Assembly (NCBI GenBank): GCA_019747655.1
Contig: JAIEQO010000572.1
Coordinates: 1 to 42,925, forward strand
Direction of reading: 5' to 3'
DNA: 42,925 bases
Origin: Gemmataceae bacterium
GTDB lineage: Bacteria > Planctomycetota > Planctomycetia > Gemmatales > Gemmataceae
Made by a program: the position numbers and the translations under genes. The notes beneath the pieces are model-generated. The model was not told the DNA's origin, searched no databases, and saw only the letters and a list, made by a program, of their open reading frames with translations. Shown here piece after piece: positions 18,554 to 42,797 of this stretch (its first letter is position 1; every line of letters starts with the position of its first letter).

Positions 18554-19990
18554 CTACTTCCCGATGCAGAAGCGGGAGAAGATGCGGTCCAGGAGGTCCG
18601 GGGTGTAGACGGCCCCGACGAGTTCGCCGAGCTGGTCGAGGGCGGCCCGCAAACTGGCCGCGGCTAGTTCGGGGGGGTCGTCGAGCAGCACCTGCCGGTG
18701 CGCCTCCTGCAAGTCCCGGGTGCAGGCGTCGAGGTGGTGCCGGCACCGGCTCTGGCTCGGGGCCAGCGGCGGCCGGGCCAGCGACACGACGGCCGCGGTC
18801 AGGGCGGCCCGGAGCGCGTTCGCCCCGCCGGGGGTTAGCACACTCGCCGCGACCACCCCGGCCGACGGGCCGCTCGCCAGGTCATCCTTCGTCCGCACCT
18901 TGACCACCGCCGCCCCGGTCTCCCCCAGTCGCGCCTCGTCGGCCGGGTCGAAACCGACCCCCGGCTCGGCACACCAGACGACCACGTCGGCCCCGCCGGC
19001 CTGCTCACGGCCGAGCCGCTGGGCCTGGCCGGCGATCCCGTCCGCGGCCTCGTCCCAGCCGGCCGTGTCCACCAGCTCGACCGGCACCCCGCCGAGGTCG
19101 AACCGCTTGGTCAGGTAGTCCCGGGTGGTCCCGGCCTTCTCGCTCACCAGGGCGTCCGGCCCGCCGCCGAGGGCGTTGAACAGGCTGCTCTTGCCGGCGT
19201 TCGGGAGGCCGACCAGCGCCACCCGGACCGGCCGGCCGCTGACGGTGCGGGAGTCGAGTTGCCGTCGGACGTTCGCCAGCCGGGCCAGAGCGGCCGCCAG
19301 CCGGGTGAGGGCCTCGGCCTTGCCCACGAACTCGATGTCCTCGTCGGCGAAGTCGAGGGCGGCCTCGGTGTCGGCCAGCAGGTTCAGCAGATCGTCGCGG
19401 ACCTGGTGGAGGGGCCCTGACACCCCGCCGGCGAGTTGGGCCAGGGCCGGCCGCAGGTCGGCGTCGGTCCCGGCCGCGATGACCGCGTGGACGGCCTCGG
19501 CCCGGGGCAGGTCGAGCTTCCCGGCCAGGAACGCCCGGAGGGTGAACTCGCCCGGGTTGGCCGGCCGGGCCCCGGCCGCGAGCAGGTCGGCGACCAGCCG
19601 CTCGACCAGCGGCGGCGACCCGATCGTATGCAGCTCGCACAGGTCCTGGCCGGTGTACGACCGCGGCCCGGGGAAGACGTACAGGTCGGCCGGCAACGGG
19701 GAGTGGACGCCGGACAGGCGGAGGGAGCCGGGGACGAGGTGACGTGGTGAGACCCCACCCCCCGTCCCCCTCCCCCGCGGGGGGAGGGGGTGACTTGCCC
19801 CCCCTCCCCCCGCGGGGGAGGGGGACGGGGGGTGGGGTCCGGTTACAGCTGCCTCGAAAACCGCCCCGACGACTTCCCGGGCCTTCGGCCCGCTGACGCG
19901 GACGATCGCCCGGGTCCCGGGGCCGGGGGCCGACGACACGGCCGCGATCGTGTCGTCCGGGTGCGGCACGCCGGCCGTCTCGAACCCCAC
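18554..19990 (-). CDS. mnmE: tRNA modification GTPase MnmE with a palindromic insertion
   Basis: MnmE works with MnmG in forming the cmnm5 modification at U34 of certain tRNAs. The N-terminal formyl-THF-binding domain (DDTIAAVSSAPGPGTRAIV, PGEFTLRAFLAGKLDLPRAEA), the G domain (GLPNAGKSSLFN, GTTRD, DTAGW, and TKDD in place of NKxD) and the C-terminal FCIGK are all present. The start GTG 19990 lies two bases after the stop of the DUF2007 gene, so the two form an operon. The length is 478 residues. Residues 51-80 (GPHPPSPSPAGGGG...) are encoded by the palindrome at 19751-19839 and replace a loop between strands of the N-terminal domain. The frame is preserved and all catalytic motifs are intact, so the protein is probably functional. 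Confidence 0.97.
   Translation of the reverse strand: MGFETAGVPHPDDTIAAVSSAPGPGTRAIVRVSGPKAREVVGAVFEAAVTGPHPPSPSPAGGGGASHPLPPRGRGTGGGVSPRHLVPGSLRLSGVHSPLPADLYVFPGPRSYTGQDLCELHTIGSPPLVERLVADLLAAGARPANPGEFTLRAFLAGKLDLPRAEAVHAVIAAGTDADLRPALAQLAGGVSGPLHQVRDDLLNLLADTEAALDFADEDIEFVGKAEALTRLAAALARLANVRRQLDSRTVSGRPVRVALVGLPNAGKSSLFNALGGGPDALVSEKAGTTRDYLTKRFDLGGVPVELVDTAGWDEAADGIAGQAQRLGREQAGGADVVVWCAEPGVGFDPADEARLGETGAAVVKVRTKDDLASGPSAGVVAASVLTPGGANALRAALTAAVVSLARPPLAPSQSRCRHHLDACTRDLQEAHRQVLLDDPPELAAASLRAALDQLGELVGAVYTPDLLDRIFSRFCIGK
19751..19839. repeat. 89-bp palindromic element inside the mnmE coding sequence
   Basis: Arms 19751-19780 and 19810-19839 are perfect 30-bp inverted repeats, starting GACCCCACCCCCCG and ending CGGGGGGTGGGGTC. 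The centre contains further C5TC5/G5AG5 blocks. The outer sequences match those of the extragenic element at 38769-38900. It is translated in frame as a Pro/Gly/Ser-rich stretch of MnmE. Confidence 0.9.
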
Positions 19991-33561: not shown

Positions 33562-33655
33562 GGAAGGGACAAGGGAAAAGGAACAAGGAACCGGGAGGAA
33601 GGAAGAAGGGACGACCTGGGCCGTTCTTCCTTGTTCCTTTTCCCTTGTCCCTTCC
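33562..33655. repeat. Perfect 29-bp inverted repeat between two co-directional genes
   Basis: Bases 33562-33590 (GGAAGGGACAAGGGAAAAGG and nine more) are exactly complementary to 33627-33655, with a 36-bp centre. Unlike most palindromes here it is purine-rich on one arm rather than G+C-balanced. Its right edge lies three bases from the stop codon of the gene at 33659-34090. Confidence 0.9.
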
Positions 33656-34251: not shown

Positions 34252-35778
34252 ATGCCGAGCGGGGCGGCGACGACGGGCGGGGGGCCGGCGGCCCGGCTGC
34301 CGGGGGCGGGGTCGGCCCTGGCCCTGCTCCTGGTCATCAACCTGTTCAACTACATCGACCGGCAGGTCCTGTCGGCCGTCCTGCCGAAGCTGAAGCGGGA
34401 CACCAGCCTGTTCGACCCGGCCGACCCGTGGGTGCAGACCAAGGTCGGGGCCCTGGCGACGGCCTTCATGGTCGCCTACATGCTCCTGTCCCCGGCGTTC
34501 GCCTGGGCCGGCGACTTCGTCCGCCGGTGGTGGCTGGTCGGGGTGGGCGTCGCCCTGTGGAGCGTCGCCAGCGGGTCGTCCGGGCTGGCCGCGACGTACC
34601 TGCTCTTGCTGCTCACCCGGGCGTTCGTCGGGGTCGGGGAGGCGGCCTACGGGCCGATCGCCCCGGCCATGCTGTCGGACCTGTACCCGGCCGCCGACCG
34701 GGGCAAGGTGATGGCCTACTTCTACGCCGCCATCCCGGTCGGCAGCGCGCTGGGGTTCGTGATCGGCGGGACCCTGGCCGGGGCCTTCGGCTGGCGGCAC
34801 GCCTTCCTGGTGACGTTCGTCGGGCTGGTCCCGGCCGCCCTCTGCTTTTTCATGCGGGACCCGCCCCGGGCGGCCCGGGCGGCCGCCGGGCACGTCCCCT
34901 ACCGGGCCGTCCTCCGGGAGCTGGTCGGCACCAAGTCGTTCCTCTACCTGTGCGCCGGGATGACGGCGACGACGTTCATCCTGGGCGGGGTGGCCACCTG
35001 GGCGCCCGAGTACATCTTCCAGCGGGAGGCCCGGTTCGCCCTGACCCCGCAGGCCCTGGCCCGGCTGGGCGCCGAGGACCAGTTCCTGAACCTCGACAAG
35101 ACGGGGCGGATGGTCCCCGAGGCGGTGTCCGACCAACTCCTCCCGGCGGCCGACGGGAAGGAACTCACGTTCGCCGAGTACAAGGGGCTGTTGGCCGGGC
35201 GGCTGACCCCGGAGCAGATGACCCTGTACGCCGAGCCGTTGTACGAGGCGGCGACGGCCCCGAACTCGATCACCCTCGGCACCATCGGCATCGTGTTCGG
35301 CGGGATCGTGGTCATCGGCGGGCTGGGGGCCACCCTGCTCGGCGGCATCGTCGGCGACCGGCTCCGCAACCGGGGGGTCCGCGGGGCCTACCTCCGGACG
35401 GCCGGGTGGTCGACGCTCCTGGCCTGGCCGTTCTTCGTGGCCATGCTGTTCGTGCCGTTCCCGCTCGGCTGGGTGTTCCTGTTCGTGGCCGTGTTCTTCC
35501 TGTTCTTCAACACCGGCCCGGCGAACACGGTGCTGGCGAACATCGCCCGGTCCCCGGTCCGGGCGACGGCGTTCGCCATCAACATCCTGGTCATCCACGC
35601 CCTCGGGGACGCCATCTCTCCGCCGATCATCGGGTTCATCGCCGACCTGTCGGACCTGCACACCGCCTTCCTGATCTGCTCGGCGTTCATCCTCGCCGGT
35701 GGCGGGCTGTGGGTGCTCGGGGCGAGGCACCTGGACGCCGACACCGCCCGGGCCGAGGCGGCGGACGGCGGCCTATGA
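34252..35778 (+). CDS. MFS transporter of the spinster-like group
   Basis: The 508-residue protein has twelve predicted helices and the opening VINLFNYIDRQVLSAVLPKL, characteristic of spinster-like MFS carriers. The TM2-3-like loop is DFVRRWWLVGVGVALWS, and GEAAYGPIAPAMLSDLYP is the conserved TM5 region. Between helices 7 and 8 lies an unusual extracytoplasmic insert of roughly 90 residues (APEYIFQREARF ... LYEAATAPNS), longer than in standard members. The substrate is unknown; relatives move lipids or organic acids. ATG 34252. The stop at 35776-35778 overlaps the start of a large palindrome, and leuS follows. Confidence 0.9.
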   Translation: MPSGAATTGGGPAARLPGAGSALALLLVINLFNYIDRQVLSAVLPKLKRDTSLFDPADPWVQTKVGALATAFMVAYMLLSPAFAWAGDFVRRWWLVGVGVALWSVASGSSGLAATYLLLLLTRAFVGVGEAAYGPIAPAMLSDLYPAADRGKVMAYFYAAIPVGSALGFVIGGTLAGAFGWRHAFLVTFVGLVPAALCFFMRDPPRAARAAAGHVPYRAVLRELVGTKSFLYLCAGMTATTFILGGVATWAPEYIFQREARFALTPQALARLGAEDQFLNLDKTGRMVPEAVSDQLLPAADGKELTFAEYKGLLAGRLTPEQMTLYAEPLYEAATAPNSITLGTIGIVFGGIVVIGGLGATLLGGIVGDRLRNRGVRGAYLRTAGWSTLLAWPFFVAMLFVPFPLGWVFLFVAVFFLFFNTGPANTVLANIARSPVRATAFAINILVIHALGDAISPPIIGFIADLSDLHTAFLICSAFILAGGGLWVLGARHLDADTARAEAADGGL

Positions 35779-35886
35779 CCCGGGCCTGTCGGCCCGGGCT
35801 ATGGTGTCACGGCCCTTCGGGCCTACAATCCAGGGTTTAGGGCCGAAGGCCCGTCACACCCTAGCCCGGGCCGACAGGCCCGGGTC
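35777..35886. repeat. 110-bp palindrome between the MFS gene and leuS
   Basis: Outer arms 35777-35801 and 35862-35886 pair perfectly over 25 bp (GACCCGGGCCTGTCGGCCCG and onward). Further inward, another 20 bp pairs imperfectly (ggtgtcacgg / ccgtcacacc; ccttcggg / ccgaagg). The repeat starts on the last two bases of the MFS stop codon and ends 23 bp before the leuS ATG. Confidence 0.9.
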
Positions 35887-38762: not shown

Positions 38763-38768
38763 TCGGCA

Positions 38769-38900
38769 GACCCCTCCCCCCTAACCCCCCTCCCCCGCGG
38801 GGAGAGGGGGGAACAGAACCAACCGGCTCGGGTCTTCCTCCCCCTCTTCCTCCCGGGGAGGGGAAGCAAAGGGGAGGGGAGCGGACCGGGGGGTGGGGTC
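38769..38900. repeat. Palindromic C/G-block element between leuS and the DUF1573 gene
   Basis: The segment begins GACCCCTCCCCCC and ends GGGGGGTGGGGTC, complementary over 12 of 13 bases. The inner part carries CCCCCTCCCCCGCGGGGAGAGGGGG. The ends and inner block match the element inside mnmE (19751-19839), but the middle is longer. It lies six bases after the leuS stop and eight bases from the stop of the convergent DUF1573 gene. Confidence 0.75.
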
Positions 38901-38908
38901 TCCTCTTC

Positions 38909-42108: not shown

Positions 42109-42112
42109 GCCG

Positions 42113-42190
42113 ACCCCTGTGAGCGTCGGGCCGTCAGGCCGACGGTCGTTGTCGGCACCGTCGGCCTGACGGCCCGACGCTCACAGGGGT
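42113..42190. repeat. Perfect 34-bp inverted repeat, terminator-like
   Basis: Bases 42113-42146 (ACCCCTGTGAGCGTCGGGCC and onward) are exactly complementary to 42157-42190, with a ten-base loop (cgttgtcggc). It begins four bases after the preceding stop codon. The stem is long enough to form a very stable hairpin on either strand. No T-run follows. Confidence 0.93.
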
Positions 42191-42332
42191 CGCGCGCCCC
42201 CCGCCCGCCCGAACACTTCCTTTCATCTCCCGTTGACACGGCCGGGCCTCCGGGTATGGTTCGCCGCTCGCGGGCGGGCGCCGCAGGGGGAAACTGCACG
42301 GCGGCCGCCCCGATCGACCCGGTCAGGACTGA

Positions 42333-42674
42333 GTGACGGACGACGCGACCACCCCGGTGGCGGCGCTGACGGACGCGATCGTGGCGTTCGCCGCGGCCCG
42401 CGGCTGGGAGCCGTACCACACCCCCAAGAACCTCGTCATGGCCCTGGCCAGCGAAGTCGGGGAGCTGTGCGACCTGTTCCGGTGGCTGACCCCGGACGAG
42501 TCCCGGGCGGCGGCCGCCGACCCGGGGCTGCGGGAGGCGGTCGCCGACGAACTGGCCGACGTGGCCAACATCGTCTTCCTGCTCAGCCACCACACCGGGA
42601 TCGATGTGTCGCAGGCCGTCCGGGCGAAGCTGGCGAAGAACGCGATCAAGTACCCGGCGCCGCCTGCGGCGTAG
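42333..42674 (+). CDS. MazG-like nucleotide pyrophosphohydrolase
   Basis: The 113-residue protein starts at GTG 42333 and matches the small dCTPase/RS21-C6-type MazG-like group. MALASEVGELCDLFRWL holds the first metal-binding ExxE-like motif, and AVADELADVANIVFLLS holds the second (ExxD). The closing helix AKLAKNAIKYP carries the conserved Lys residues. It hydrolyses non-canonical or excess (d)NTPs to the monophosphate and pyrophosphate in the cytosol, guarding the pool. The family's HxPKNL segment is present (YHTPKNLVMAL). Confidence 0.92.
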   Translation: MTDDATTPVAALTDAIVAFAAARGWEPYHTPKNLVMALASEVGELCDLFRWLTPDESRAAAADPGLREAVADELADVANIVFLLSHHTGIDVSQAVRAKLAKNAIKYPAPPAA

Positions 42675-42680
42675 TGTTTC

Positions 42681-42764
42681 GTGTCCAGTGTTTAGTGTTT
42701 AGTCGGGGGGTTTGGTGGTTAGTCGCGGCGGTCCCGGTGATCGCCGCCACTAAACACTGGACAC
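42681..42764. repeat. Nested inverted repeat with A+T-rich arms
   Basis: GTGTCCAGTGTTTAGTG (42681-42697) is exactly complementary to 42748-42764. Both arms are surrounded by further partial copies of AGTGTTTAGTG. Inside, ttagtcgcggcg and cgccgccactaa pair with one mismatch. It starts six bases after the MazG-like stop and is strikingly A+T-rich for this genome. Confidence 0.88.
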
Positions 42765-42797
42765 TAAACACTGAACACTCCCACAGGGGGGTGGGCC

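Follow-up and report, generated by a model that had tools for sequence, protein, structure and literature searches.

A REPIN-like palindromic element in frame within mnmE of a Gemmataceae bacterium, and the loops that such palindromes occupy in other conserved genes

How does the gene of a conserved tRNA modification enzyme come to hold a long perfect palindrome inside its coding sequence, and what would become of the protein? The question arises in contig JAIEQO010000572.1 of the Gemmataceae assembly GCA_019747655.1, which was analyzed as a single window of 42,925 nt. The gene mnmE (tRNA modification GTPase) lies on the minus strand at 18554-19990, with GTG at 19990 as candidate start, and the palindromic element sits at 19751-19839 on the same strand, where the mnmE frame stays open throughout and would encode residues 51-80 of the protein (P0001; GPHPPSPSPAGGGGASHPLPPRGRGTGGGV). 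A sequence-only reading of this DNA had put the palindrome at these positions with perfect arms of 30 bp; the place stands, and the arms are longer, 40 nt each (19751-19790 and 19800-19839), 100% complementary and separated by a loop of 9 nt. Each arm, neither of which has a strand of its own, contains an inner hairpin (19766-19776/19780-19790 in the left one, 19800-19810/19814-19824 in the right one), so that the element is made of two REP-like halves in inverted orientation. Its sense RNA has a predicted folding energy of -113.9 kcal/mol, compared with -66.7 ± 3.65 for 200 shuffled versions (z -12.9). The same reading had noticed related sequence further along, and a second copy of the family was indeed found at 38768-38901 (no strand assigned), with no coding signal around it in a codon-signal test.

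At gathering thresholds no Rfam family matches the mnmE element, and a known structured RNA was rejected as its identity, the only Rfam result being Acido-Lenti-1 elsewhere in the window. At 35777-35886 this family, which Rfam lists as an sRNA, is matched by the two arms of an inverted pair, one on each strand; the place has the look of a further REPIN-like DNA element and not of an sRNA gene. Other long inverted repeats are present in the window at 42111-42192, 33562-33655, and 42673-42772, with arms of 36, 29, and 25 nt, respectively.

A start downstream of the palindrome is excluded because the conserved MnmE N-terminus DDTIAAVSSAPGPGTRAIVRVSGP, kept in relatives, is encoded upstream of the element; this was one of two circumstances under which the insertion claim of the sequence-only reading would have had to be given up. 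In the encoded protein Pfam recognizes the GTPase and helical domains together with TrmE_N, whose match lies after the insert and is limited to positions 63-117 of the profile's 117. The two conserved mnmE blocks are 135 nt apart here, against 57, 51, and 54 nt in the genus-mates G091, G088, and G090, a net gain of 26-28 residues; the proposal of about 30 added residues at 51-80 was thus right in position and slightly generous in length. The insert had also been assigned to a loop, and both available structural views agree with this. In the MnmE chain 9hip, which we take to be that of E. coli, a short linker aligns at the insert position (TVLGKLP---KPRYADYLPF), and an AlphaFold2 model of the window protein (33 sequences, mean pLDDT 84.7, pTM 0.60) gave pLDDT values of only 49 (residues 51-60), 47 (61-70), and 45 (71-80) for the insert, with neighboring blocks at 91 and 81. 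On this model the insert looks like a disordered loop, and we attach no functional claim to it.

The element is far from alone in its genome. At least 92 matches were found in the 7.33-Mb source assembly (G000, 1113 contigs), with 40 of 293 first-look candidates scored, and when a profile was run over the window and 100 further contig stretches, 1.70 Mb in all, 75 elements remained after merging, in keeping with the dispersed family that had been proposed. This set includes 37 contigs with earlier matches (36 chosen on purpose, and the window), which biases its density upward. The bias is downward in the remaining 64 stretches (L134-L197; 1.22 Mb), from which those contigs are absent; these hold 26 elements (eight in frame, one shifted, 11 with coding signal on one side, five with none, one at an edge). 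The window copy measures 89 nt, and 39 of the 75 merged elements 105-146 nt. An alignment of 54 copies has a consensus with the ends GACCCC...GGGGTC. Of the 75 elements 46 could be parsed, and in 24 of these the outer-stem triplets are complementary, in the other 22 not; the shuffled mean was 11.0 and the maximum 20 (2000 shuffles), so pairing tends to persist while the sequence changes. Beyond this genome, at least 16 of 95 Gemmataceae genomes, its own included, have a match at E ≤ 1e-8 with up to nine candidates scored per genome.

Each copy was classified by whether a codon signal is present on both sides of the element, whether the two sides are in the same phase, and whether a stop intervenes. 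Among the 75 elements, 22 are in frame without a stop, two are frame-shifted, and one is in phase with a stop; 36 have coding signal on one side only, 12 on neither, and two lie at edges. Alternative window sizes gave 15-22 in frame versus 2-3 shifted and 1-2 with a stop. If the frame were indifferent (about one third expected), at least 22 in frame among 25 would have a probability of 2.3e-8, in a test that is blind to genes broken by an element and since decayed. The in-frame share was 20/75 (27%) with 120-nt flanks and 22/75 (29%) with 240-nt flanks, versus 56% and 45% of random positions on the same contigs, so that by this test genes contain fewer elements than expected by chance. These counts supply the comparison of copies inside and outside coding sequence that the sequence-only reading had called for. 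Two further in-frame cases stand outside the 22, mnmE itself and a glycosyltransferase gene on contig C1057, both called one-sided by the test for lack of a codon signal on their 5' side. They share a stretch (19750-19846 in the window, minus strand) identical at 94 of 97 nt, with nearly the same peptide.

The 22 in-frame elements fall in 20 host ORFs, 19 of them with Pfam families, among them PheT, GlnE, Lnt, lactate permease, Pnkp ligase, SHC, and PanE. In lactate permease, GlnE, the tRNA_synthFbeta domain of PheT, Pnkp ligase, and DEAD_assoc (a Lhr-type helicase) the element splits a domain or sits within it, and the inserts of the 22 would be of about 29-58 residues. It seems, as far as gene sequences can tell, that the family is able to enter conserved genes without breaking them, as had been suggested from mnmE.

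This excess of in-frame copies is absent from the general palindromes of the genome. Those with arms of at least 16 nt had no clear frame bias, with 14 in frame, 15 shifted, and four with a stop among 122; ten more from the same stretches overlap family elements, and, as a point against the reading given below, only one of them was called in frame and one in phase with a stop, the rest being one-sided, without signal, or at an edge. Other palindrome families of this genome also occur in frame (L135, L159, L186, L170, L173, L196, and L197), where peptides such as LASGGRQPP...ADAPRSP, SGRTPSVS.GV, and AGVPPAPA recur.

A single-contig genome of 10.1 Mb with an element of its own in MnmE (G010) was chosen to exclude assembly artefacts. 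Its MnmE insert has at least 89 matches within the genome (40 of 86 candidates scored). We sampled 39 places besides mnmE among the matches listed, plus three 20-kb stretches, and obtained 44 elements, 23 of them in frame by at least one of the three window sizes used (one size alone gave 13, 18, or 19), two shifted, and none in phase with a stop. For 21 of these 23, only one of the three frames on the gene strand is open, and it is the frame used; the remaining two have two open frames. A single open frame per strand is also the rule among the remaining 21 copies (18 on the plus strand, 15 on the minus), which makes one-frame readability a property of the element, the genes using that frame. 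Most insert peptides read xPTPPSPLPEGKGE...SPFPSGRGDGGVG or close variants, inserts of the PTPPSPLPEGKGE...SPFPSGRG type also occur, and their lengths go from 37 to 107 residues; the elements sometimes have other element types adjoining them or nested within. Pfam matches at E ≤ 1e-5 were obtained for 21 of the 22 host ORFs (one, L266, below the curated cut-off), and the hosts include KdtA, RarA/MgsA, QueG, a TilS-like PP-loop protein, SMC, and Pnkp, names beyond the Pfam families being our own reading.

The MnmE loop was followed through the family. Of 95 genomes searched, 94 gave a match, some of them not full MnmE genes, and the loop set was built from 22 of 77 loci, which contain 20 distinct sequences, 19 from genomes of the family search and one from a named MAG (L059). 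The profile of the window family matched the loop in 11 of these 20 sequences, two of the matches being weak (L038 and L027, 11-13 bits in a very small search). The reading frame is kept in nine of the 11. In the other two, G018 (L032/L058) and G009 (L036/L060, Gemmata sp. IIL30), mnmE is one base out of frame with a palindromic element at the break, which falls between the N-terminal part and the rest; these breaks may be real lesions or run-length sequencing errors in homopolymers. A twelfth MnmE (G023, locus L034) has a different palindrome at the loop, with 16-nt arms, and the sister species G010 and G009 have different element types. A quick tree of MnmE (32 rows, N-terminal part left out) requires at least four changes in the presence of an insert. 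The expectation that relatives would lack residues 51-80 is borne out only in part: G091, G088, and G090 are shorter, and several others have palindromes of similar or greater length.

Is the reuse of a loop peculiar to MnmE? Ten host genes (with flanks joined) were searched in six genomes of the genus, with 20 more sites, which gave 43 gene-by-relative pairs. A palindrome is held by a relative at five of the ten sites and in nine of the 43 pairs; the other 34 have no insert, or an insert or linker (some of them long) without a clear palindrome or strong family match. The DUF2344 site is free of insert in G091, G089, G090, and G088; in G092 it was considered as a palindrome and not counted, having a perfect arm of only 8 nt and a weak family match (11 bits). 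For glnE there is no insert in G091 and G088, a family element in G092 (39.7 bits), and in G089 a long insert or linker without a clear palindrome. Family elements occur in pheT of the window's genome, of G092 (45.2 bits), and of G091, where the reading phase differs (58.9 bits). At three further loops the relatives have unrelated perfect palindromes: lnt (arms of 29 nt in G091 and 21 in G088), a FAD/FeS protein (24 in G088, 21 in G090), and PMT (24 in G089, 19 in G092), where 30 shuffles of each site never gave an arm above 13. The Pnkp elements of the window's genome and of G010, which belongs to another genus, follow the same SKRPL motif. The PMT gene of G089 (L244) has in frame a tandem pair of another palindrome, with peptide WEGEAPAEP...ARQEPRPPVTP; in the window's genome that loop is occupied by a different element. 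What had been seen at a single site thus holds and becomes wider, being genome-wide, with the same loops taken by different palindromes and with two frame-broken relatives.

The palindromes, their dispersal, the in-frame bias, the insert-free relatives, and the reuse of loops by different palindromes can be read directly in these genomes, and we consider it very likely that the mnmE palindrome is a copy of a mobile REPIN-like family, tolerated in frame and read through as a disordered protein loop. The element would be one copy of a GC-rich family in which two inverted hairpin halves form one long hairpin, a small non-autonomous unit spreading within Gemmataceae genomes by means of a mobility agent, presumably a transposase acting in trans. 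Lineages would survive where the copy fell in a tolerant surface loop and in a stop-free frame; the ribosome would read through the hairpin, and the protein would gain a disordered loop made mostly of Pro, Gly, Ser, and Arg. Copies inside genes would then persist only where frame and fold allow. The inserts are probably translated and probably neutral, and the host proteins presumably still work. As for the agent, mobilization by a RAYT is unsupported: Y1_Tnp, the RAYT-type transposase, had no match at E ≤ 1e-3 in G010, and no element was found at E ≤ 0.01 in the flanks (about 1.5 kb) of six Y1_Tnp loci of the source genome and three of G012, one weak match near such a locus having E 0.35. A plasmid source was also discarded, with no match among 72,556 plasmid records. 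In a check for target-site duplications, such as mark MITEs, the insertion junctions were too diverged between relatives to show any.

A more active role could be imagined for the loops. Fixed docking loops (in Lnt, PheT, GlnE, Pnkp, MnmE, and others) might be refilled across species, with the mRNA hairpin or the flexible loop under selection. We regard this as unlikely; if true, mobile palindromes would be a renewable source of translation-tuning linkers. Selection might also act on the hairpin itself, slowing the ribosome at domain borders and helping co-translational folding, any palindrome being kept whatever its sequence. The unrelated palindromes that genus-mates have at the loops of lnt, the FeS protein, and PMT, and the different palindrome in the MnmE loop of G023, would fit such a role, but tolerance of the loop accounts for the same pattern, the 34 pairs without such a palindrome or strong family match speak against it, and so does the rarity of elements in coding sequence relative to random positions (27% vs 56%; 29% vs 45%). 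We find it quite improbable.

Mitochondrial byps and introns are precedents for inserts that never reach the protein, and the element might likewise be excised from the transcript, or the ribosome might jump over it, leaving a protein without insert. The very stable hairpin could be taken in this sense, and so could the palindromes at the break of the two MnmE genes that are out of frame, but frame and stops would not matter to bypass or RNA excision, whereas in-frame copies far exceed broken ones (22 vs 3 in G000, 23 vs 2 in G010), stops in the reading frame are rare (one and none, respectively), and Rfam has no match to the element at gathering thresholds, so that skipping appears very improbable. 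A chance low-complexity expansion or an assembly artefact in place of a mobile family, which the fragmented source assembly and the C and G runs of the element might bring to mind, is scarcely credible given the same pattern in the one-contig genome, the matches in at least 16 of 95 Gemmataceae genomes, the relatives without insert at the site, and a third-order Markov control with no palindrome of arm ≥ 16 in 600 kb, against 132 in 1.22 Mb of real sequence.

The preferred reading, a mobile and tolerated REPIN-like family, invites comparison with known systems. The sequence-only reading had likened the mnmE insert to the Rickettsia palindromic elements (RPEs), whose original descriptions are said to be those of Ogata in 2000 and 2002, and the likeness is sustained, as a likeness only, by copies in frame in conserved genes and copies between genes. 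RPEs are described as in-frame palindromes in protein genes of Rickettsia, also intergenic (PMC2229807, PMC10969869), of 105-146 bp (PMC2229807). Going by these descriptions, both have palindromes with long stem-loops, in intergenic positions and in frame in conserved genes, expression being predicted in our case. In size, the window copy (89 nt) falls short of the RPE range, into which 39 of the 75 merged elements fit. The Gemmataceae elements differ in being GC-rich, REPIN-like, and hosted by Planctomycetes with genomes of 7-10 Mb, and in that different palindromes take up the same loops again. REPINs and BIMEs, described as extragenic and RAYT-linked (PMC3116915), resemble the family in architecture, with two inverted REP-like hairpins, a variable spacer, one long hairpin, and many dispersed copies. 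Unlike the extragenic REPINs of that description, 22 of 75 (G000) and 23 of 44 (G010) Gemmataceae copies are in-frame parts of genes, and in none of the genomes examined (G010, G000, and G012) could the family be linked to a RAYT. GTAG/CGTC REPs within ORFs of several bacteria are reported to encode 20-82 residues, among carriers outside Rickettsia such as O. terrae, Thauera, and Xanthomonas, and in two Xanthomonas species recB has REPs at nearly one and the same site (PMC3733652). Planctomycetes are named there as REP carriers, while the main text has no mention of Gemmata, Isosphaera, Singulisphaera, Rhodopirellula, Planctomyces, or Pirellula; the Gemmataceae consensus, compared with the tags described, has neither GTAG nor CGTC. 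Among the open-licence papers listed for Planctomycetes or Gemmata, we found none on in-frame palindromes in Gemmataceae. By description rather than by sequence, the family appears to work like RPEs; it has the architecture of REPINs, and we claim membership in neither.

Protein-coding palindromes are best known from Rickettsiales, and here they appear as dozens of in-frame copies in conserved enzymes of large-genome Planctomycetes. New here are the occurrence in a family of planctomycetes, the scale reached in a genome of one contig, and the fact that unrelated palindromes have repeatedly taken the same loops. The last of these offers naturally replicated cases in which to ask if the inserts are passengers of no effect or linkers of some use, a point undecided for Rickettsia, and Gemmataceae has cultured members, which makes direct testing of the family possible. 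Annotation and structure models of Gemmataceae proteins should expect inserts of this kind.
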